A DNA stretch of 61,582 nucleotides from contig WFTL01000085.1 of the NCBI GenBank assembly GCA_015485495.1, forward strand, positions 1 to 61,582. The letters run 5' to 3'. The notes under the pieces were generated by a model, which saw only the letters and a list, made by a program, of their open reading frames with translations, had not been told where the DNA came from and did not search any database. Shown piece by piece: positions 11,991 through 44,582 of the stretch. The translations under genes and the position numbers were made by a program. Every line of letters begins with the position of its first letter. Within the stretch, counting starts at the first letter, position 1. Source of the stretch: Planctomycetaceae bacterium. Its GTDB lineage: Bacteria > Planctomycetota > Planctomycetia > Planctomycetales > Planctomycetaceae.

Positions 11991-12668
11991 ATGGAATCGG
12001 CCAGCACAATGCAGCAGATCGTGGAATCCGGGGGATTCCAGGGTCTGTCTCCTCAACTGAAAGTCGCCCTGTTTCTGGGCGGCATGGTGCTGATTTCGTC
12101 CGCCCTGGTGACGATGACGGCGTTCACCCGCATCATCATCGTCCTGTCTTTCGTGCGGAGGGCTCTGGCGACACAGGAAATTCCCCCCACTCAGGTGATT
12201 CTGGGACTGTCCCTGTTTCTGACGATGTTCGTGATGGGACCGACTCTGACGCGCATCGAACAGGATGCCGTGCGGCCGTATCTGGAAGAGGAGATTACCG
12301 GCGACGTGGCGTTTCAGCAGGGCCTGGCCGCTCTGCAGGACTTCATGCTGCGTCAGACGCGCAAAGCCGACATTGCCCTGTTCGCCAGAATCGCCCGGAT
12401 CCGGTCGATTTCGACACCGCAGGACACCCCCATGCGGGTGCTCATCCCCGCCTACGTGATCAGTGAACTGAAGACCGCCTTCATCATGGGGTTCTGTCTG
12501 TACATCCCCTTCATGCTGATCGATCTGGTGGTTTCCGTCATTCTGATGTCTCTGGGCATGATGATGATGCCGCCCATGGTGATTTCGACTCCGTTCAAGA
12601 TTCTGCTGTTCGTGATGGTCGACGGCTGGCAGCTCATCGCCCGCGTGCTCAGTACGAGCTTTCACTGA
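11991..12668 (+). CDS. fliP: Flagellar export gate protein FliP
   Basis: 225 residues. LVTMTAFTRIIIVLSFVRRALATQEIPPTQVILGLSLFLTMFVMGP and the C-terminal ISELKTAFIMGFCLYIPFMLIDLVVSVILMSLGMMMMPPMVISTPFKILLFVMVDGW are hallmark FliP sequences. Four transmembrane segments are visible. It is slightly shorter than usual (about 245) and the typical cleavable signal peptide is not obvious. FliP forms the core of the export gate with FliQ and FliR, but neither of those follows here. A 13-nt tandem duplication spans the stop codon. Confidence 0.95.
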   Translation: MESASTMQQIVESGGFQGLSPQLKVALFLGGMVLISSALVTMTAFTRIIIVLSFVRRALATQEIPPTQVILGLSLFLTMFVMGPTLTRIEQDAVRPYLEEEITGDVAFQQGLAALQDFMLRQTRKADIALFARIARIRSISTPQDTPMRVLIPAYVISELKTAFIMGFCLYIPFMLIDLVVSVILMSLGMMMMPPMVISTPFKILLFVMVDGWQLIARVLSTSFH

Positions 12669-32287: not shown

Positions 32288-33550
32288 ATGGTGCGTTCTC
32301 TGTCCCGATCCATCCTGCGTCTGTCCGCTGTCCTCATTCTGATCCCGGGAAGCCCCTCTTTGGCCGTCGCCGCAGAAGAGCTGCTCACATCCGAACTCAT
32401 TTTTCCACTCGAAACCTGGCACAACCACGGTTCATGCATTGTGGAATGCCCGAACGGCGATCTGCTGGCCTGCTGGTTCCACGGTTCCGGGGAACGCCGG
32501 TCCGATGATGTGGTCATTCTGGGAGCCAGGAAACGTCGGGGCACAGATCGCTGGAGTGCGCCGTTTCTCATGGCCGATGTGCCCGATTTTCCGGATACCA
32601 ACTGCTGCATGATCATCGATCAGCAGCAGCGGCTGTGGCTGCTGTGGCCCACCATTCTGGCCAATACCTGGGAAAGTGCTCTGATGCACTACCGAATTTC
32701 CACCGACTACATGAAACCGGAAGGGCCTCCGGAATGGGACATCTGCCAACTGCTGCTCGCCAGACCGGGAAACGATTTTCAGGAACGCGTGGCCGAAAAA
32801 GTGGACGCCTATCTGGCGTCCCAGGAAATTCCCGAAACCCTGCAGCCTCTGGCCGAACAGTGGAAACGGCACGTTCTGGAGCAGGCCGGTGACAAACTGA
32901 CACGGCGGCTGGGATGGTTCACCCGCGCTCACCCGCTCCTGCTGAACGATGACACTCTGATCGTCGGACTGTATTCCGACGGGTTTTCCTTTTCTCTGGC
33001 AGCCATCACGCGTGATGGAGGCGAAACGTGGCAATTCAGCGAGCCCATTGTGGGCGGCGGAAATATCCAGCCCAGTTTCGCTGTGGGTCGTGACGGCCGC
33101 ATCGTAGCCTACATGCGGGACAACGGTCCGCCGCCCAAACGCATCATGGTGTCGGAATCCCGCGATCAGGGGATGACCTGGAGCACCGTTTACGATCACC
33201 CTCAGCTTCCCAACCCCGGATCCGGACTGGAACTGGCCGCACTGGCCGACGGAGACTGGATCTGCATCTACAACGACACGGAACAGGGACGTCACAGCCT
33301 GGCCGTGTCCCTGTCGTCGGATGAAGGAGCTACCTGGACGGTCACTCGTCACCTGGAACGGACGGAATCCGGAAAGGGCAGCTTCCACTATCCGTCCATT
33401 GTCCAGGGACGGGACGGAACCCTGCATGCCACCTGGAGCTACTTCGTACCCACCACAGACGGAGAACGCAAAAGCATCAAATACGTCCACTTCACCAAAG
33501 ACTGGATCACCGCCAGCGATTCCGACCGACACGGTGCGGACGGGTCCTGA
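32288..33550 (+). CDS. Secreted sialidase-like (BNR repeat) protein
   Basis: 420 residues. The ATG at 32288 is preferred because GAGGAA lies about eight nt upstream. Signal peptide about residues 1-27 (ILRLSAVLILIPGSPSLAVAA). Three Asp-box motifs of the sialidase/neuraminidase propeller are visible: ITRDGGETWQFS, SESRDQGMTWSTV and SLSSDEGATWTV. The N-terminal HNHGSCIVECPNGDLLACWFHGSGERRSDDVVILGARKR matches exo-alpha-sialidase-like proteins frequent in planctomycetes. It probably hydrolyses or binds an acidic or sulfated glycan; a true sialidase activity is not shown by the sequence. Confidence 0.85.
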   Translation: MVRSLSRSILRLSAVLILIPGSPSLAVAAEELLTSELIFPLETWHNHGSCIVECPNGDLLACWFHGSGERRSDDVVILGARKRRGTDRWSAPFLMADVPDFPDTNCCMIIDQQQRLWLLWPTILANTWESALMHYRISTDYMKPEGPPEWDICQLLLARPGNDFQERVAEKVDAYLASQEIPETLQPLAEQWKRHVLEQAGDKLTRRLGWFTRAHPLLLNDDTLIVGLYSDGFSFSLAAITRDGGETWQFSEPIVGGGNIQPSFAVGRDGRIVAYMRDNGPPPKRIMVSESRDQGMTWSTVYDHPQLPNPGSGLELAALADGDWICIYNDTEQGRHSLAVSLSSDEGATWTVTRHLERTESGKGSFHYPSIVQGRDGTLHATWSYFVPTTDGERKSIKYVHFTKDWITASDSDRHGADGS

Positions 33551-33967
33551 ATGATGGCCCGACACGGAATCCCGGCAGCTCACGGGCGCACGATCCGCGA
33601 AAACTGCCGGATTTCCGCTGAATTTTTTTGACGATCGGCCGCGTCGACCTATGTTTCGAACGTTCCGGACGCCCGTTCGCCCGCCACACAGGCCGGACCG
33701 CGGTCACGCTCACGGAACCACCACAACACATGGCAGCCGGTGCGCCTGCTGAAACAGCAGCGCGGCAAGGAAAGCTGGGAGCTTTGAGGGGACCTTGTCG
33801 CGCTGTTTTTACGCGCTGAAACAACGGGGAGGTCAGAGAAGCCGGGCAGGATTTTCCGGTTCTTCCGGTTTTTCGCTTGAGTGAATCTGTGCGGGCTGCC
33901 GATGGATCGAACAGGTCGGGTGCGCCGTGCGCCCTGGTGAGGAGTCCTTTCTCTCTCGGCCCTGTTC
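33551..33967. other. Intergenic region with a strong hairpin and U-tract
   Basis: 417 nt between two plus-strand genes. Besides the hairpin at 33758-33810 it contains CCGGCAG/CTGCCGG at 33572-33610 with a 25-nt loop, followed after 12 nt by seven T. No gene recognised. Confidence 0.5.
33758..33810 (+). terminator. Long stem-loop followed by TTTTT
   Basis: CAGCGCGGCAAGG (33758-33770) pairs with CCTTGTCGCGCTG (33793-33805) over 13 positions with one G-T wobble. Inside it AAAGCT/AGCTTT forms a second perfect stem with loop GGG, and TTTTT follows at once (33806-33810). It has the form of an intrinsic terminator on the plus strand. It sits 208 nt after the sialidase stop and 157 nt before the 800-residue protein, so it may alternatively act as a leader attenuator. 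Confidence 0.65.
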
Positions 33968-36370
33968 ATGAACCATTCGTCGGATATCCGCCGTGGCAGC
34001 CGATTCCTGGCGGCGGCCACTTTGATCAGTGTCGGTTTCGCCGCCGCAGCGCTGATCGCTGCCCTGAACAGGCCGCGGCCGGCTGCTGAATCGTCATCGA
34101 GGGCAGCTCCGATGCCTCCCGGCCACGCCACTCCGCACCCGTCTGCTGCAGACCGGGCGTCGGTCTCCCACGGCCATGCCGCCCATCCCCGCGATTCTCA
34201 ACCGAACTACGTGGCCACACAGCAGACATTCCCAATCGACATCACACCGGGCACGACAGGCCTGCAGCACGAAACGCATGAATTTTCCACGCCGGAAGGA
34301 ACCAGCATTTACGTACCGGTCACCGTTCATCCGGTCTCTGTGAAGTTCAGCGATTCGGCCCTGTCCGATCAGCTCCATGAACTGACGCACCACGTCGAAA
34401 ATGTTCTGGAAGGCCAGCAGGTCATCCGCGACCGCCAGGAACAGGTTCTGTCAGAACAGCAGGCCGCTCTGGCCCGCCAGACAACCGCGCTGAGCGAACT
34501 GCAGCAGCAGCGTCTTGCAGAAATCGATGCCACTCTGACACGCCTGACTCAGTCCATCAACGAACTGCGGCTGGAATCCCGCACCGCGGTCGCGGAACTC
34601 AGTCATGAAATCGCCGAAACATCCGATCGATCGGAACTGATCGCCGAGCTGCGGCAGCGTCTGGACGATCACCGCCGCCTGCTCCTGCAGCAGCACCGAC
34701 AGGCCGTCTCGATGCGGACCACCGACCGTTCCGAATCCCTTCCCGTGGCCGCGTCTTCATCCGATGATGCGGCTCCGGAAACTGCTCCGGCACCAGCAGA
34801 AATCGACTGGGCGGCCGACGCCGATTCTCATGACGAGCACGCGGCAGACGGACAGGACACAGAAGCCGTCGGCTGGACGTCGCGGTCGACGGAGCCCCCG
34901 TCGGATGAAGCCGCGTCTTCTGCCCAGGAACCGCCGAATCCTCAGGCACAGGACACACCATCCGCCGTCGCGTCTGCAGACCGCCAGGAGAACGCAGCCG
35001 ACGATCCCAGGGCCGCTGCTGAATCCCACGACGCCGATGCCCCGGCCGGGACAGACGGGCCGTCGGACACGGACGATCCCACACAGCCGTCGGATACCGT
35101 GGCGACAGACGTCCCGTCTCAGACATCCGCATCCGGCCAGACGGCGGATACCGTGACGTCCGATACCGCTTCCCGCACCGATCGGACACCAACGGAAACT
35201 CATGCGCAGCCGCTCGCCTACCATCAGCCTGCTCCGCAGGACCAGACGCCGATCAGAAATCCGGAAGGAGATTCTGAGACTGAAAAACCTGCCCGTCCTT
35301 TGCCGCAACTGAAACCGGCTCCCGTTCCTCCGGATCCACAGCGGGAAGCGTCCGATGCGTCGATGATTTCCCGCGAATCTTCGACTGTCCCTGCGCGGCA
35401 CCGCCAGCGGCCGTCCGGACGAAAGACACGGCCGAGCTGGCTGCCGCGGTACCTGTTCGGCATGGACCTCAGCGCGATTTCGCACCGGTCCGATGCGCGG
35501 CCCATCCGCCGGGCATCGCAACAGACGGACCGACAACGGCGCGCCATTGCCCGCAGCGGCGCAGCGGCCGCCCGGTCCCGCCTCCGTCGATCAGCCATAT
35601 CGCAGACACATTCCCGAACGGATTCTCAGACAGCTTCTCGCACAGCTTCTCGCACAGGTTCTCAGACAGTCTCCCCGGCCCGGCAGCCGGCAATCCGAAA
35701 CGACGGACCGGAAGGTGTCGTCGTCCCGACCGCCGCTCTTCGGTCTCGAACCGCCGGTCATCGGGTAGTTTCCCGGAACGAATCCGGTCCGTCGGATTCG
35801 AATCATGAAGGGCATGGAGGCAGCCTGGTGACTCGCACGGTCACGCGCAGCGTGGATGCGGTGCGTGGCATGAGCCGCCGGGTGGCAGATCGAACGGGGG
35901 CTTTCTGGAACGAAATGGCCCGCCGTCGCCAGATGGCCCGGCACTACCGGCAGCACTACCGGCCGCAGCATCATCCTCAGCCGCGATATGCCGGTGCCTA
36001 CTACCGTCAGCAACTGCAGCAGCAGCCCGCATCCGCACGTTCCGCAGGTCAGCCGGCATCCTATGCCGTGCGATCCCGGCACGGACATCGGCAGCCGCAC
36101 ACGCATCGACGTCCGCACTCGCATGTCCATTCAGCCGCTGTCCCGCGTGCGGCGACTGCCCGCACGGCCGGTGCGTCACCGCGATCCGCGTCTCCAGCAC
36201 CGGTACGGCAGGCTTCTGTGCGAAACCGGTCGGTGCCACAGAATGCGGCACCCTCTTACTACCAGTCTCCGCAGACGAACGCATCGCGGTCTGCAGCAGT
36301 GATACCGGCAACGCGGTCGCAGCACGCGTTTCTGCCGCCGCGCTACGTGCTTCCGCCACCCGCATTCTGA
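33968..36370 (+). CDS. Large membrane-anchored, charge-segregated low-complexity protein
   Basis: 800 residues. One N-terminal transmembrane segment (FLAAATLISVGFAAAALIAAL, about residues 13-33). Residues 60-130 include a short predicted beta region (STPEGTSIYVPVTVHPVSVKFSD). Residues 130-250 are a coiled coil (LHELTHHVENVLEGQQVIRDRQEQVLSEQQAALARQ). Residues 255-410 are acidic and rich in Ala, Asp, Ser and Thr. From about 470 to the end the protein is strongly basic: Arg/Ser repeats near 560-590 (SRTDSQTASRTASRTGSQT) and then Arg, His, Tyr and Gln (RQHYRPQHHPQPRYAGAYYRQQLQQQP). I recognise no family. It stands alone between a terminator-like hairpin and a 12-bp inverted repeat. A role in envelope structure or nucleic-acid binding is possible but not shown. 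Confidence 0.7.
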   Translation: MNHSSDIRRGSRFLAAATLISVGFAAAALIAALNRPRPAAESSSRAAPMPPGHATPHPSAADRASVSHGHAAHPRDSQPNYVATQQTFPIDITPGTTGLQHETHEFSTPEGTSIYVPVTVHPVSVKFSDSALSDQLHELTHHVENVLEGQQVIRDRQEQVLSEQQAALARQTTALSELQQQRLAEIDATLTRLTQSINELRLESRTAVAELSHEIAETSDRSELIAELRQRLDDHRRLLLQQHRQAVSMRTTDRSESLPVAASSSDDAAPETAPAPAEIDWAADADSHDEHAADGQDTEAVGWTSRSTEPPSDEAASSAQEPPNPQAQDTPSAVASADRQENAADDPRAAAESHDADAPAGTDGPSDTDDPTQPSDTVATDVPSQTSASGQTADTVTSDTASRTDRTPTETHAQPLAYHQPAPQDQTPIRNPEGDSETEKPARPLPQLKPAPVPPDPQREASDASMISRESSTVPARHRQRPSGRKTRPSWLPRYLFGMDLSAISHRSDARPIRRASQQTDRQRRAIARSGAAAARSRLRRSAISQTHSRTDSQTASRTASRTGSQTVSPARQPAIRNDGPEGVVVPTAALRSRTAGHRVVSRNESGPSDSNHEGHGGSLVTRTVTRSVDAVRGMSRRVADRTGAFWNEMARRRQMARHYRQHYRPQHHPQPRYAGAYYRQQLQQQPASARSAGQPASYAVRSRHGHRQPHTHRRPHSHVHSAAVPRAATARTAGASPRSASPAPVRQASVRNRSVPQNAAPSYYQSPQTNASRSAAVIPATRSQHAFLPPRYVLPPPAF

Positions 36371-36423
36371 TCAGGCCACCCATTCGGTCTCCGGGTACGC
36401 ACAAGCGGAGAATGAAGCACTGT

Positions 36424-36470
36424 TCCGGTTGCCTGATCTCCTGAATTATCTAATCGCGCAGGCAACCGGA
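36424..36470. terminator. 12-bp perfect inverted repeat between convergent genes
   Basis: TCCGGTTGCCTG (36424-36435) and CAGGCAACCGGA (36459-36470) with a 23-nt AT-rich loop. It lies between the plus-strand 800-residue gene and the minus-strand nuclease-like gene and may stop both. No U-tract. It also marks the left edge of the low-GC island. Confidence 0.5.
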
Positions 36471-36615
36471 TTCGGAAGCGTCGGCAACTCCATACATCGA
36501 GTATCCGTCCGTGGCCTTATTGCCGTATAACGTCTGCCGAAACCGAGCACGAACGGAAGACTATGATTTCAGTTGCCGCGTGACTGAGTGCGCCAGTTGA
36601 CGGCTGTGCTATGCA

Positions 36616-37482
36616 TCACTTTCGACGGTCGTACGCCTGCTGGAATAAAACCTTCAGGTAGTCGCGATGCGTTTGCGCCTCATCTTTAGTAAACTTGAGC
36701 TTGTAGACGTGAAAGACTTTGTCGTAGCCGAGTGATGTGATGTTTCGATTGTCTAACTCAGCATCTTGCTCTTCAGATTGATCAAGACGTACATCTATCC
36801 TGATCGCTTTCTTCTGAGGGGTGAACGTAGCGATGTTGAACGGCTTGCCGTCCACTTTGAGCCCTATGTATCCCTGTGTGTAGTTGAGTTCAGCGGAGGG
36901 GGCAATCTCTTGGACCACATTTAGCATGTCGTCCGCAATCGACATCGTATCAGTCGCAGCTTTCTGCTCCCAGAAAGTGCGATCGACCAATTTTGTTGTC
37001 TCTTCGTCGTCATCGACGAAGCCAAGCTGGTTCGTGTCAAGAACACGCGTGAAATGCAGACCGATTCCCTGTTCCGTGTCGAATGCCGACAATTGCAGGG
37101 CTACGATTGGGATGAAACCATTGAAGAGGCTCACGACATTGAGAAAACGAGTGGTGATATCTTCGGCAATCAATACTGCAGTGTGCTCGTATTGAGGATA
37201 GCGACGCCGTTCGATGTCCCAATACTCGATTGTGCGAATAATGTGTGACTCGTCAGAAGGTCCAAGCTGTATCTCAACCTCGTACCGAGAGTGGTTTTCG
37301 GAATTCTGAAGAAGCAAGTCCAGCCTGCCGGCCCGCTGGTGACGGCGTTCGCGATCTTTCACCACTAACTCACCGAGACCGAGCATAGAGGGGTTTGCCT
37401 CAATTGCATCCTGCAACCAGCGCTCGTTGTACTCGGCGTGGGACTTTAGGCTAATCGTTTTCAGGTGAACTGCAGGTTTCAT
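36616..37482 (-). CDS. Putative PD-(D/E)XK nuclease-like protein in a low-GC island
   Basis: 288 residues from ATG 37482. AGRLDLLLQNSENHSRYEVEIQLGPSDESHIIRTIEYWDIERRRYP has the order D, then E-x-Q, of a PD-(D/E)XK-like nuclease core, with Gln in place of the usual Lys. AVLIAEDITTRFLNVVSLFNGFIPIVALQLSAF follows. The C-terminal third has Tyr/Lys-rich strands and a basic tail. Base composition is foreign: lines 36721-36780 and 36781-36840 each have 27 GC of 60 against 41 of 60 in the preceding gene (36061-36120). No partner gene of a restriction or toxin system is adjacent. The fold is inferred from the motif order only. Confidence 0.7.
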   Translation of the reverse strand: MKPAVHLKTISLKSHAEYNERWLQDAIEANPSMLGLGELVVKDRERRHQRAGRLDLLLQNSENHSRYEVEIQLGPSDESHIIRTIEYWDIERRRYPQYEHTAVLIAEDITTRFLNVVSLFNGFIPIVALQLSAFDTEQGIGLHFTRVLDTNQLGFVDDDEETTKLVDRTFWEQKAATDTMSIADDMLNVVQEIAPSAELNYTQGYIGLKVDGKPFNIATFTPQKKAIRIDVRLDQSEEQDAELDNRNITSLGYDKVFHVYKLKFTKDEAQTHRDYLKVLFQQAYDRRK

Positions 37483-37781
37483 ATAGTGTGATGCATAACG
37501 AGTAGTCTCTCCGGTCAGCGTCGATATTCGCGTGGTTCGGGGGACATTGGTGGAGATCGGTGATGATATCAGGCTACCGGCGGGAGATCGGGCTGTCAAG
37601 ATGGTGGTACCCACGCCACGTAAGCAGGCCCACGGTGTACGACCGCCTGCATGTCGTATCCAGGAGCCTGCAGGCCGGATCAGGGAGAGCAGCGACACCG
37701 ATCCGGCAGCTCCGCATCCGGCTTGTCAGTATGGCGGCCGCTGGGCCGGGCCTGGCAGCCCTTTGGCGGTTGCCTGCGGCG

Positions 37782-39451: not shown

Positions 39452-39889
39452 AGGATCTTCCGGATCATCAGATCAGGAAACGAGAATCCGGAACGACAGT
39501 CAAATGGCTTTGCCGGGACTGGACGCTGGAAAACACAGAGGAAAGAATGATCTGCCGAAACGTTCGTTCTCATGGGAGCCTGGTTTTCTCACGACAACAG
39601 CCTTGCCGGATCGCGCGATGCACGCCATCATAAATATACCTTTATGTCCTTTATTGGGCTGGTGTGTCGATCCGAATGGGGAATCTGACGGAACGAACGG
39701 GATTGTCGATGTCGGATCCGGGTTTCCTGAATCGGGATGTCATGACGGTGCTGCTGGTCAGAGACGTTCGGCGTGCGCCCTGTCAGACAGTCTCAGGCGG
39801 AACCCAGGAAAGCTGCGCCCGGCTGCCCGGTCGAGGCCGGGAAGTGCCGGCCTGAGCAGGTGCTCACCGGCCGTGAAGGAATGAACACG
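39452..39889. other. Divergent intergenic region with an AT-rich promoter-like patch
   Basis: 438 nt between the SixA-like gene (minus) and the PSCyt gene (plus). GAAGGA at 39875-39880 is the ribosome binding site of the latter. An AT-rich island at 39628-39656 stands out. No gene recognised. Confidence 0.5.
39628..39656 (+). promoter_or_regulatory. AT-rich patch with inverted repeat, candidate promoter of the PSCyt operon
   Basis: CATAAA TATACC TTTATG is an inverted repeat with a 6-nt spacer, followed by TCCTTTATT, in otherwise GC-rich DNA. It is about 235 nt upstream of the PSCyt start codon. Candidate -10 region or operator. Confidence 0.4.
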
Positions 39890-42800
39890 ATGACAAACGA
39901 AAAACGCTTCTGCAACTTCCGCCGCCCCAGGGCGCTCACACTGATCGGAATCGTTTTTCTGGTCAGCGGAACGGCGTGGTGCGAAGACGCTGCGACCTAC
40001 CATTACAATCGCGATGTCCGGCCGATTCTGGCGGAGTATTGTTTTGCGTGCCACGGTCCCGACAGTGCCTCGCGGAAGGCCGATCTGAGACTGGATCGTC
40101 GCGAAGACGCCATTGAACAGGGCGCTCTGGTTCCGGGAAACGTCGCAGACAGCGAACTGATCGCCCGCATCATGACGGATGATCGCGATCTGGTGATGCC
40201 TCCGGCGGAGACTCAGAAGACGCTGTCCGCTGAACAGAAGGAGATTCTGCGTGTCTGGGTCGCTGAAGGAGCCGAATACGAACGGCACTGGTCTTTGATT
40301 CCCCCGACGCTCCCGGACCTGCCGGATGTGATTCATACGGACTGGGTCCGCACTCCCATCGACCGATTTGTTCTGGCCCGTCTGGAAGCCTCCGGACTGG
40401 AACCGGCTTCGGATGCCGATCCGCGTGTGCTGTTTCGGCGGCTGCATCTGGACATCACGGGGCTGCCGCCGCGTCCGCACGATGTGGATGCGTTCGTCCG
40501 GGATTACGGCGACGATCCGGAAACGGCGCTTTCAGACTGGATCGATCAGCTCATGAACCTGCCGGCCTGGGGGGAACATCGGGCCCGGTACTGGCTGGAC
40601 GCGGCCCGCTACGGCGACACGCACGGACTGCACTTCGACAACTACCGGGAAATCTGGCCGTACCGCGACTGGGTGATTCGCATGTTCAACGCGAATCAGC
40701 CGTTCGATCAGTTCATCGTGGAACAGATCGGCGGCGACCTGCTGCCCGATCCCACCGACGATCAGCTCATCGCCACGGGCTTTCAGAGATGCAACATCAC
40801 GACCAACGAAGGGGGAACGATCGATGAAGAGAACCTGGCACTGTACGCCACGGACCGGGTGCAGACGTTCGGCTGGGTGTTTCTGGGGATGACGACGAAC
40901 TGTGGTCAGTGCCACGATCACAAATTCGATCCGTTCACCATGAAGGACTTCTATTCTCTGGCGGCCTTTTTTCGAAACACGACGCAGCCTGCCAAAGACG
41001 GCAATGCCAAAGACGGACGCGGGCCGGTTCTGGTGGTGCCGTCGGCAGACGACCGGCCCCGCTGGAAGGCTCTGCCGGCCGAAATCGCCGCCGCTGAGGC
41101 CGCTCGGGATGCACGCCGACAGTCGGCGGAACCGGAATTCCGTTCCTGGCTGGCTCAGGCGACTCCCGATGTTCTCCGCGATGATGTTCCGGACGACGGC
41201 CTGGTGGTGCACCTGGCACTGAACGAAGGGCAGCATGTGCCGGCGACGAATTCGTGTGCTCCGCAGGACCCGGTCCGCACCACCGGCGATGTGGTGTGGG
41301 TTCCGGACGGGCCGTTCGGACCGGCGCCGGTGATGAAGCGAAACAGCACCTTTGAACTGGGGCCGCACGGAGACTTCGAGAAAGATCAGCCGTTCAGTTT
41401 CGGAGCCTGGATTCGGACAGGACACGGTGATGTCAGCGGAGCCATCATCGCCCGGATGGACGAACCACGTGCTTACCGCGGCTGGGACCTGTGGCAGCAG
41501 GGACGGCACCTGGCGGTGCATCTGATCGATTCCTGGCCCGGCAATGCACTCAAAGCGGTCACGAAGAAGCCGGTTCTGCAGCCCGGTCGCTGGCAGCATG
41601 TCCTGGCCACCTGGGACGGTTCCGGACGAATCGACGGCATCCGCATCTATGTGGACGGCGTCGCCGTGGAACTGAAGCCGGAAAAAAACACGCTGCAGGC
41701 TGATGCATCTGTTCGTACGGAAACTCCTTTACGCATCGGTCAGCGCAGCGACGCGCAGGAGTTTCGGGACGGAGCCGTTCAGGACGTTCGCATTTACCGT
41801 CGGTGTCTGGACGCCGGAGAAGTGAAACGGCTGGCCGACGTGGGCGTTGTGAAGACGATTCTGGCCACGGCAGAAGAACAGCGGTCCGAAGAACAGCGCA
41901 ACCGTCTTTATGACTATTACCTGGAAACCCGCGACGAACAGTATCCGGCTCTGGCTGCCGCCGTCGACCGGCTGACGGCCGAACAGGAGGCGATTCAATC
42001 CAGGAGCCCTGTCACACTCATTCAGCAGGAACGTCCCGATACGCCGCCCACGGCACACATCCTGATCCGCGGTGAGTACGATCGCCCGGGAGAGAAAGTG
42101 TCTGCGGCCACTCCCGAAGCTCTGCATCCGATGAAGGATGATCTGCCCCGCAACCGCCTGGGACTGGGGCTGTGGCTGATCGACCCGGACAACCCGCTGA
42201 CAGCCCGGGTGACTGTCAATCGGTTCTGGCAGGAAATTTTCGGGCGGGGCATCGTGGCCACTCCGGAAGACTTCGGCGTGGTCGGGGCGGATCCGTCGCA
42301 TCCGGATCTGCTGGACTGGCTGGCTGTTGACTTTCAGACCAGCGGCTGGGACGTGCGGCGGTTCTTCAAACAGGTGCTGATGAGTCGAACCTATCGGCAG
42401 TCGGCCGCCGCTTCGCCGGAAAAACGGCAGCGGGATCCCGACAACGTGCTGCTGTCCCGAGGTCCGCGGTTTCGCATGGATGCGGAAATGGTTCGAGACT
42501 ATGCCCTGGCGGCCAGCGGGCTGCTGTCGCCGCGCATGTTCGGTCCCGGCGTGAAGCCGTATCAGCCGGACGGAATCTGGGATGTCGTGGGACTGCCCGA
42601 AGGCAACACCCGTGTCTATGTGCAGGACACAGGAGAAAATCTGTATCGGCGGTCCGTTTACACGTTCTGGAAACGGATGGCTCCGCCCCCGAACCTGGAA
42701 GCGTTCAATGCGCCCAGTCGGGAAGTCTGTACGGTGAGGCGAGAGCGCACGAACACGCCGCTGCAGGCACTGGTCACCCTGAACGATCCGCAGTTCGTCG

Positions 42801-43096
42801 AAGCCGCCCGCTGCCTGGCTCAAACGGCCCTGCAGGCGGCCGACAGACGCGGTTCCCGCATGGACTTCATCGCACAGCGTGTCCTCTGCCGAACTCTGAA
42901 GACGGAAGAACGAGCCATCCTGTCGGCCGATCTGAAAGAGTATCTCCGTTACTACCAGACGCACCCGGACGATGCTCAGGCTCTTCTGGCCACGGGAGAA
43001 TCTCCCCGGCCCGAAGACATGCCGTCGGCTGAACTGGCGGCGTGGACCATGGTCTGCAGTGAAGTGCTCAATCTGGATGAAACACTCAACAAATGA
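39890..43096 (+). CDS. Planctomycete cytochrome-type protein PSCyt1-PSCyt2(DUF1549)-LamG-PSD1(DUF1553)
   Basis: 1068 residues from ATG 39890; the ATG at 39881 abuts the GAAGGA site, while 39890 has nine nt of spacing. Signal peptide (ALTLIGIVFLVSGTAWC). PSCyt1 has CFACHGPDSASRKADLRLD (CxxCH near residue 51). PSCyt2/DUF1549 contains TPIDRFVLARLEASGLEPASDADPRVLFRRLHLDITGLPP and ARYGDTHGLHFDNYREIWPYRDWVI, with a second CxxCH (NCGQCHDHKFDPF) near residue 339. A LamG-like concanavalin domain is inserted at about 430-640. PSD1/DUF1553 ends the protein (DNPLTARVTVNRFWQEIFGRGIV ... NTPLQALVTLNDPQFVEAARCLA). Such proteins are a phylum hallmark; function is thought to be in periplasmic polysaccharide metabolism. 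A DUF1501 gene follows in the same operon. Confidence 0.96.
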   Translation: MTNEKRFCNFRRPRALTLIGIVFLVSGTAWCEDAATYHYNRDVRPILAEYCFACHGPDSASRKADLRLDRREDAIEQGALVPGNVADSELIARIMTDDRDLVMPPAETQKTLSAEQKEILRVWVAEGAEYERHWSLIPPTLPDLPDVIHTDWVRTPIDRFVLARLEASGLEPASDADPRVLFRRLHLDITGLPPRPHDVDAFVRDYGDDPETALSDWIDQLMNLPAWGEHRARYWLDAARYGDTHGLHFDNYREIWPYRDWVIRMFNANQPFDQFIVEQIGGDLLPDPTDDQLIATGFQRCNITTNEGGTIDEENLALYATDRVQTFGWVFLGMTTNCGQCHDHKFDPFTMKDFYSLAAFFRNTTQPAKDGNAKDGRGPVLVVPSADDRPRWKALPAEIAAAEAARDARRQSAEPEFRSWLAQATPDVLRDDVPDDGLVVHLALNEGQHVPATNSCAPQDPVRTTGDVVWVPDGPFGPAPVMKRNSTFELGPHGDFEKDQPFSFGAWIRTGHGDVSGAIIARMDEPRAYRGWDLWQQGRHLAVHLIDSWPGNALKAVTKKPVLQPGRWQHVLATWDGSGRIDGIRIYVDGVAVELKPEKNTLQADASVRTETPLRIGQRSDAQEFRDGAVQDVRIYRRCLDAGEVKRLADVGVVKTILATAEEQRSEEQRNRLYDYYLETRDEQYPALAAAVDRLTAEQEAIQSRSPVTLIQQERPDTPPTAHILIRGEYDRPGEKVSAATPEALHPMKDDLPRNRLGLGLWLIDPDNPLTARVTVNRFWQEIFGRGIVATPEDFGVVGADPSHPDLLDWLAVDFQTSGWDVRRFFKQVLMSRTYRQSAAASPEKRQRDPDNVLLSRGPRFRMDAEMVRDYALAASGLLSPRMFGPGVKPYQPDGIWDVVGLPEGNTRVYVQDTGENLYRRSVYTFWKRMAPPPNLEAFNAPSREVCTVRRERTNTPLQALVTLNDPQFVEAARCLAQTALQAADRRGSRMDFIAQRVLCRTLKTEERAILSADLKEYLRYYQTHPDDAQALLATGESPRPEDMPSAELAAWTMVCSEVLNLDETLNK

Positions 43097-43121
43097 TTCT
43101 CGAATCGTAAAAGGCTGTACG

Positions 43122-44582
43122 ATGAACGGTTACACAGACCCGAGCGGAGCGCTGCATCGGGCCCGCACGCGCCGGGAGTTCTTTGCCAGCGGCCGCAGTC
43201 TTCTGGGAACCGCTGCTCTGGCGTCTCTGGCCGGAACGCCGGCTGTCCGCGCGGCGGGAACGGAACCAGTCGGCCCGCATTTCACTCCCAGGGCGAAACG
43301 TGTGATCTACCTGCACATGGTGGGCGGACCGTCGCAGATGGATCTGTTCGATTACAAACCGGCGATGACCGAATGGTACGACCGCGATCTGCCGGAATCG
43401 GTCCGCATGGGCCAGCGGCTGACCACGATGACAAGCGGCCAGGCCCGGTTTCCCGTCGCGCCATCCCGCTACCGTTTCAGCCAGGCCGGCGAATGCGGCA
43501 TGTGGATGAATACCGAACTGCTTCCCTGGCTGGCTCAGAAGGCCGATGACATCTGCTGGATCCGCAGCATGCATACGGAAGCGATCAATCATGAGCCGGC
43601 GATCACGGCCCTGCAGACCGGCAATCAGATCACGGGGCGGCCGTGTCTGGGGGCCTGGGCGTCGTACGGTCTGGGATCAGAAAACGAGAATCTGCCCGCC
43701 TTCGTGGTGCTGGTGGCCGTGCCGTCCAACCGGGAACAGGAACAGGCGATTTCCGGACGGCTGTGGAGCGCCGGATATCTGCCGGGCGAACATGCGGGAG
43801 TGTCCTTTCGCAGCAAGGGAGACCCCATTTTGTACATCAACAATCCGCCGGGTGTACCGTCGGCGGTCCGCCGGCGGTCGATTGAAAGTGTCAATCGACT
43901 GAACCGGTTCACTCTGGAAGCGACCGGCGATCCGGAAACACTCACCCGCATGCAGCAGTACGAAATGGCGTTTCGGATGCAGGCCAGTGTGCCCGAACTG
44001 ACGGACCTGTCTCAGGAATCGCAGAGCACATTCGAACTGTACGGAGAAGCAGCGAAGACTCCCGGGACTTTCGCCAACACGGTTCTGATGGCCCGGCGCC
44101 TCGCAGAACGCGGAGTGCGGTTCATTCAGGTGTATCACAACAACTGGGATCATCATTCCAACCTGGCCGGACGAATGCCGGATCAGTGCCGCGATGTCGA
44201 CCGGCCGTGTTACGCCCTGCTGGAAGACCTGCAGCAGCGGGGACTGCTGGACGAGACTCTGATTATCTGGGGAGGAGAATTCGGACGCACGATCTACACG
44301 CAGGGACGCCTGTCACGGCAGAACTACGGCCGGGACCATCACCCCCGCTGCTTCACGATCTGGATGGCCGGCGGAGGCATCCGGGGGGGCACGATTTACG
44401 GGGAAACCGACGACTTTTCGTACAACATCGTGAAAGATCCCTGCCACATCCGCGACTTTCATGCCACCGTACTGCACCTGCTGGGATTCGATCATGAACG
44501 GCTGAGTTTCCGGTATCAGGGACTCGATCAGCGCCTGACCGGTGTTCTTCCCGCCCATCCCATTCCTGAACTGATCGCCTGA
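43122..44582 (+). CDS. DUF1501 protein, Tat-exported
   Basis: 486 residues. Twin-arginine signal (ARTRREFFASGRSLLGTAALASLAGTPAVRAAG). The body shows the DUF1501 pattern: RVIYLHMVGGPSQMDLFDYKP, WIRSMHTEAINHEPAITALQTG, GVRFIQVYHNNWDHHSN, DETLIIWGGEFGRT, GRDHHPRCFTIWMAGGGIRGGTIYGETDDFSYN and the terminal LHLLGFDHERLSFRYQGLDQRLT. These residues resemble the metal site of the alkaline phosphatase/sulfatase superfamily. It is 25 nt after the PSCyt gene, the usual pairing in planctomycetes, and the operon ends at the terminator at 44596. Confidence 0.96.
   Translation: MNGYTDPSGALHRARTRREFFASGRSLLGTAALASLAGTPAVRAAGTEPVGPHFTPRAKRVIYLHMVGGPSQMDLFDYKPAMTEWYDRDLPESVRMGQRLTTMTSGQARFPVAPSRYRFSQAGECGMWMNTELLPWLAQKADDICWIRSMHTEAINHEPAITALQTGNQITGRPCLGAWASYGLGSENENLPAFVVLVAVPSNREQEQAISGRLWSAGYLPGEHAGVSFRSKGDPILYINNPPGVPSAVRRRSIESVNRLNRFTLEATGDPETLTRMQQYEMAFRMQASVPELTDLSQESQSTFELYGEAAKTPGTFANTVLMARRLAERGVRFIQVYHNNWDHHSNLAGRMPDQCRDVDRPCYALLEDLQQRGLLDETLIIWGGEFGRTIYTQGRLSRQNYGRDHHPRCFTIWMAGGGIRGGTIYGETDDFSYNIVKDPCHIRDFHATVLHLLGFDHERLSFRYQGLDQRLTGVLPAHPIPELIA

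Follow-up and report, generated by a model that had tools for sequence, protein, structure and literature searches.

We found that the 800-residue reading frame at positions 33968-36370 (+) of the window, a 61,582-nt stretch of planctomycete DNA (contig WFTL01000085.1), encodes a real protein of an undescribed family, which occurs in one group of planctomycetes with one gene per genome. The window copy has an aberrant tail. The main finding is the family, which keeps a fixed order of parts in five genera; the tail of the window protein is the family's oddest local form. The first-pass annotation of this DNA had drawn the frame with the same ends and length and had recognised no known family. 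Searches of Pfam, NCBIfam, PHROGs and PDB agree with it, returning coiled-coil noise only (CENP-K, CENPH, SMC, Atg11); relatives do exist, however. No paper describing the family was found in the searched part of the open-access literature.

The organisation of the unusual planctomycete envelope is an open question, for which envelope proteins confined to this lineage are candidates. In three genera every sampled genome (3, 4 and 8 genomes) has a member, and the family, being small and having a single gene in each genome, is amenable to deletion.

Members of the family and coding evidence

Within the taxonomic family, 22 of 170 genomes have a clear member, and these belong to 5 of its 58 genera: g1 (3/3), g54 (4/4), g55 (8/8), g73 (6/18) and, in g6, genome G007. 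Genus membership in these counts was taken from the listing order of the genomes. The window protein alone, used as query, found two congeners among 59 genomes (G001, E 2e-7; G002, E 7e-5), and profiles built stepwise (A4, A5 and A8) reached further genera. Matches to the stepwise profiles numbered 14/170 at E<=0.01, 23/170 at 1e-3 and 23/170 at 1e-4; these three scans scored 12-16 candidates per genome and may have missed members. When every candidate in genus g73 was scored, 9 of its 18 genomes matched before the conserved boxes were checked. Three g73 matches (G153, E 1.8e-5; G154, 3e-6; G157, 2.6e-4) lack both the strand box and the C-terminal box and were dropped, which reduced 25 genomes to 22. 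The window protein matches the family profile with an E-value of 2.9e-64, a value obtained with the window sequence itself in the profile.

A sample of the phylum (294 genomes, 7 candidates scored in each) gave four matches: the window's own genome and three weak ones at E ~5e-4 (L050-L052). These three were set aside; two span model positions 165-284 only and one has five internal TGA codons. Other candidates were rejected. The match in G113 (E 8.9e-4), one of the 14 at E<=0.01, is, on reading, a different protein, the hit in L054, a 'Gammaproteobacteria' MAG, is due to chance, its frame having 83 codons and no coil, and the ORF at L071 is not a family protein. Loci L002 and L004 are one gene, as are the two halves of the G002 copy.

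The frame in the window is most likely a gene. In a search of its genome (G000) with profile A5 at E<=1, the window's ORF was the one gene matched. Its ATG start is backed by an MNxSSDF-type box that is present in relatives. We scored six frames with a codon-usage model trained on 73 long ORFs, and the ORF frame came top of the six in the N-terminal and coil part (0.43), the acidic part (0.18) and the whole basic part (0.04), where off-frame 501-nt windows have a 99th percentile of 0.02 and in-frame windows a 5th percentile of 0.10. The final 504 nt scored weakly (-0.02), tied with a minus-strand frame. Codon score supports the coding status of the tail weakly, and does not by itself support the last 504 nt. 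After the coil the frame stays free of stops for 554 codons, an event to which a first-order model of this DNA gives a chance of ~6e-4.

Parts of the protein

The first-pass annotation had described a membrane anchor, a coiled coil, an acidic middle, an Arg/His-rich basic C-terminal tail and short Ser-Arg-Thr repeats, and each of these parts was recovered in some form (Table 1). The anchor was confirmed as a hydrophobic stretch (mean Kyte-Doolittle 2.25) inside a predicted helix, and the repeats were found to read Ser-Arg/Gln-Thr. AlphaFold2 placed helices at residues 6-33, 130-217, 221-252 and 633-663; this model was built from a four-sequence alignment and is of a single chain, so a coiled coil is not demonstrable by it. 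The coiled coil held up as a prediction, with periodic hydrophobic residues along a helix that has one break. None of 2000 shuffles equalled the power of its I/L/V/M pattern at helical periods. This pattern peaks at 3.6 with little at 3.5, and the helix is therefore stuttering rather than a canonical heptad coil. Disorder prediction, which the annotation had proposed as a check, gave mostly low confidence: 564 of the 800 residues have a pLDDT below 50, and the mean is 51.

Table 1. Features of the window gene and the DNA that follows it
Feature	Position	Strand	Basis and remarks
800-aa ORF, family member	33968..36370	+	ATG start; sole family gene in genome G000
N-terminal membrane segment, aa 13-31	34004..34060	+	hydrophobicity, model; behind conserved MNxSSDF/I-R/Q box
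Strand-like box, aa 116-128 (VPVTVHPVSVKFS)	34313..34351	+	alignment with relatives
Long helix, aa 130-252, coiled-coil-like, 123 residues	34355..34723	+	model, periodicity; conserved with relatives to ~aa 239
Acidic Ala/Asp/Pro/Ser/Thr-rich disordered part, ~aa 247-439	34706..35284	+	charge segments, model
Basic Arg-rich part, aa 440-792	35285..36343	+	maximal-sum charge segment
12-bp tandem repeat, 3.9 copies, encoding a Ser-Gln/Arg-Thr run	35623..35669	+	repeat search
Basic helix within tail, aa 633-663	35864..35956	+	model; block pLDDT 81-87 over aa 641-660
Perfect 12-bp inverted repeat, 23-nt loop	36424..36470	.	12/12 bp, z -2.4, no T-run; between convergent genes

Three parts are conserved across relatives: a membrane box at the N-terminus, the strand-like box, and the coil. 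Relatives start with an MNxSSxF(Q/R)TG-type sequence, and a TM-like stretch lies at residues 11-31 in 19 of 19 distinct N-termini; as these were chosen by pattern and a hydrophobicity filter, only the position of the TM is informative. The window protein has this N-terminal box with a TM at residues 11-31, followed by the strand-like box and then the coil, which can be aligned with that of L002 to about residue 239. The strand-like box (VPVTVHPVTVNVD) is the best conserved motif apart from the membrane box. It is intact in the window protein (VPVTVHPVSVKFS), degenerate in the two congeners and shortened in g73 members. No strand was predicted in it in either of two models, those of the window protein and of a Fuerstiella relative. 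Several g55 and g73 members also have an EFYP box.

The window protein has two large blocks of opposite charge. Its maximal acidic segment (residues 76-439) has a net charge of -45 and is densest from about residue 250, and its maximal basic segment (440-792) has a net charge of +46 over 353 residues. The smaller block thus carries 45 charges; 2000 shuffles of the protein's residues gave no more than 28. A search of the genome for the same layout, also proposed in the annotation, showed the window protein to be the most extreme of 199 sampled ORFs, with the runner-up at 26; these ORFs, some of which may not be real genes, are the longest non-overlapping frames of at least 200 aa in a ~0.33-Mb sample of the genome. 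Within the tail, amphipathicity differed among three 18-residue windows (624-641, p 0.027; 633-650, p 0.24; 646-663, p 0.75). Residues 664-800 contain 18 R, 10 H, 8 Y and 14 Q, and D, E and K are absent.

The order of acidic then basic is found in 12 of 15 family members (the window's included) versus 28 of 105 background ORFs of at least 400 aa, where the 15 are related sequences and not independent. The annotation's reading called for low complexity in homologues as well. The middle part of relatives is indeed low-complexity, but among the 15 the charge blocks exceed all 500 shuffles just in the window protein and its congener L004. The blocks were matched by 1 shuffle in L063, 5 in L068 and 19 in L067, and those of the other 10 members are not beyond 95% of shuffles. 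Because only these five proteins surpass at least 95% of their shuffles, the strong version of the layout is a trait of the window's genus and also, though the basic part is weaker there, of three g73 members. Twelve of 14 relatives have no more than 6-16 net charges in their largest basic segment.

Most relatives end in a conserved box of the LHRxSSAIR type, present in 16 of the 18 with complete frames. It lies within the last 26 residues of 15 relatives, and of G146. The C-terminus of G075 has a looser version (MLQRVGATLRKF) that misses the pattern, and the 258-codon frame of G160 ends early without the box. With a position matrix made from 15 relatives, which themselves score 19-29, the box was not found in the three plus-strand frames of 34700-37000, where the best score was 7.6. 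A frameshift search for a lost box over the whole window gave at best 13.4 (position 12388, minus strand), again below 19-29. The box has therefore been lost or replaced in the window copy. This makes the window copy an aberrant member, with its Arg/His/Tyr/Gln tail a local replacement. A long tail of this composition is particular to the window copy, and both congeners have His/Arg-rich stretches ahead of their C-terminal box. The last residues of the window protein weakly and non-significantly resemble an F-x-F-P-P motif in the interior of L002 (E 0.5). The window copy can be regarded as a natural exchange in which a charge-block tail has taken the place of the conserved end.

Judged by shuffling, only 3 of 10 members tested have an amphipathic C-terminal box (p<0.05). 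The Fuerstiella relative's model gives a confident fold to neither the C-terminal nor the strand box. Six of the 16 members listed, each from g55, have a C-x2-C-G-x2-H motif, placed after a Y-x-F motif. One family member (L058:9385-12816) contains it four times, at 90-residue intervals.

Three family members share repeats with a secretin. When 13 members, the window's among them, were compared with three secretins, three members, all of g55, aligned to the secretin N-terminal part: L058 over 154 aa (E 7e-18), L065 over 164 aa (2e-12) and L064 over 48 aa (7e-12). The other 10, including the window protein, had no match to the three secretins. The large repeat protein is a secretin by its PF00263 match in G070 (E 6e-23) and G068 (5e-22); in G000 the contig ends inside the gene and the match (5e-4) is below the cut-off. 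A one-repeat profile gave five matches in two frames in G070, four of them in the secretin and the fifth in the family member, and matches in one frame each in G068, G067 and G000. At 1e-6 the repeat profile matched 23 of 40 relatives, and 47 of the 48 places listed are in frames of more than 1000 codons; of these large proteins only those of G070, G068 and G000 were identified as above, and others may not be secretins. Large frames with secretin-type repeats are also found in genomes without the family.

From these profile matches, the repeats are mainly those of one large protein in the examined genomes, a secretin where it was identified. This suggests that the three repeat-bearing members sit in the same compartment as the secretin, and the shared repeats favour the envelope over DNA. 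The piece common to the secretin and these relatives makes it a concrete candidate partner. That the repeat-bearing members bind it is a conjecture, and the window member has no such repeats. The family gene is not adjacent to the secretin gene (contigs C85 and C46 in G000; C84 and C59 in G070; 0.76 and 8.58 Mb in G068). The secretins themselves (L113 at G000:C46, L114 and L115) have several repeats of ~50 aa in their N-terminal part, and this protein is not known to have been described.

Possible function at the envelope

We propose, with a probability of roughly 0.4, that the family consists of lineage-specific bitopic membrane proteins that serve the envelope as a tether or scaffold, with a coiled coil as spacer and a polyampholytic arm. 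The N-terminal helix would fix the protein in a membrane. A self-associating coiled-coil stalk may be formed by the strand-like box together with the long helix, and the remainder would be a flexible charged arm whose far end touches a partner. In most of the family this contact would be made through the conserved C-terminal box, and in the window copy through the long Arg/His/Tyr/Gln-rich tail. The acidic and basic blocks of the window protein could pair within or between molecules; the annotation had suggested that its opposite charges might permit self-association or the binding of nucleic acid or envelope polymers. A scaffold of this kind might work around the secretin.

The arm would most likely lie on the outer, periplasmic side of the membrane, because three relatives carry repeats otherwise seen in a secretin that the same genome encodes. 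The least secure step of the proposal is this sidedness. K/R density is similar on either side of the TM: the 19 N-termini have 21 K/R in the ~11 residues before it and 44 in the 20 after it, and a positive-inside analysis of them gave no sidedness signal. Additionally, the C-x2-C-G-x2-H motifs of g55 members would suit a reducing cytoplasm too.

An alternative is that the arm is cytoplasmic and the protein a membrane-anchored nucleic-acid binder, with the Arg/His tail holding DNA or RNA and the acidic block a competing intramolecular mask. The net charge of the tail and the C-x2-C-G-x2-H motifs of one genus are compatible with such binding, and a K/R density after the TM no lower than before allows a cytoplasmic C-terminus. 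One paper reports that alternating charge patches in a disordered region drive the phase separation of RNase E (PMC12691583). RNase E-type scaffolds (BR-bodies) resemble the window protein in having a long disordered region with opposite charge patches; the window protein differs in its two large blocks in place of alternating patches, its clear TM anchor and its want of a nuclease domain, as the RNase E catalytic domain was not found with Pfam or NCBIfam. We regard nucleic-acid binding as rather unlikely, for the long basic tail is not conserved, the repeats shared with the secretin suggest the periplasm, and no DNA- or RNA-binding domain above cut-off (Pfam, NCBIfam) or significant PDB relative was found.

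The same repeats would also fit a GspC-like accessory of the secretin, anchored in the inner membrane and contacting the secretin's periplasmic N-terminal part through the strand-like box or the coil; in two of the three members the shared part runs over ~150 collinear residues. However, at the cut-offs applied none of 11 members gave a Pfam match to a type II secretion component, repeats of the secretin type occur more widely than the family does, and the two genes lie apart in G000, G070 and G068. This reading is unlikely. A more elaborate form of it is quite improbable. In that form the planctomycete secretin would have in this family a new partner in the inner membrane, one that connects as GspC does but has a TM, a short strand box and a coiled coil in place of the folded HR domain; the Arg/Tyr/His-rich polyampholytic tail of the window lineage, standing in place of the C-terminal box, would use its charge to draw together the machine or an anionic polymer of the wall. 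The tail might also be decayed or mis-assembled, if a frameshift or rearrangement had exchanged the C-terminus for GC-rich DNA read in an arbitrary frame. Arg/Pro/Ala/Ser-rich translations are typical of off-frame GC-rich DNA, and the missing box and the ambiguous codon score of the last 504 nt would fit. We consider this very unlikely, as the frame stays open far beyond the coil and ranks first of six over the whole basic part, a helix is confidently predicted in the tail, and both congeners have His/Arg-rich stretches before the box.

The envelope tether can be set beside known bitopic proteins. TonB and TolA span the periplasm with an N-terminal anchor and a long charged low-complexity or helical arm. 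The family resembles them in this anchor and arm and differs in that it has no TonB or TolA C-terminal domain (Pfam); the SPOR domain of FtsN-type tethers was also not found in the window protein or 10 relatives (Pfam). PilP-type proteins, like GspC, have a layout comparable with that of the family, which shares a short N-terminus, a single TM, a flexible linker, a conserved strand-like segment and a coiled coil, and three relatives of the window protein carry secretin-type repeats. For GspC, one paper describes a short cytoplasmic N-terminus, one TM, a Pro-rich linker, an HR domain and a PDZ or coiled-coil end (PMC3169554). Unlike the GspC/PilP type, the family has no type II secretion Pfam domain (no T2SSC/HR match at E<=1 for the window protein or E<=0.1 for 10 relatives), has no predicted beta domain and does not lie beside the secretin gene in three genomes. 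The likeness to the secretin itself (PF00263) consists of tandem repeats common to 3 of the 13 members compared, whereas the window member has neither a match to it nor a secretin domain.

Genes and DNA around the window gene

The family gene had been described as isolated between a terminator-like hairpin and an inverted repeat. It is isolated: a BNR-repeat protein gene on the same strand ends at 33550, and a convergent 360-aa ORF occupies 36616-37698 (-). The upstream hairpin is not above chance, with 2 sites in 33400-37000 versus 2.7 in shuffles and a fold z of 0.22 at 33600-33670. The downstream inverted repeat is present, though without a T-run, and no exact copy of it was found in the other loci compared.

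Beyond the BNR gene, genes for pyruvate dehydrogenase E1 and E2 and a lipoamide-dehydrogenase-like protein lie on the minus strand. The convergent ORF has no Pfam match at 1e-5, and its central part may be of nuclease type. Past it are genes for DprA and a histidine-phosphatase-family protein, and then plus-strand PSD1 and DUF1501 genes. In G001 and G002, the family gene lies between what we take to be YceH/DUF480 and EF-G genes.

The ORFs around the family gene in 19 loci formed 118 clusters by similarity, of which 5 cross genera. Four of the five join just two loci each, and the remaining one is a DUF1501 gene (PF07394) that lies 26 bp-1.8 kb from the family gene in 5 of the 19 loci (L058, L060, L061, L064 and L065), in g54 and g55; the window DUF1501 gene is 6.6 kb away. 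This proximity is probably a coincidence because DUF1501 genes are numerous in planctomycetes. In the window, a PSCyt1/PSCyt2/PSD1 gene adjoins the DUF1501 gene (39773-44582, +), a pairing that is common in planctomycetes.
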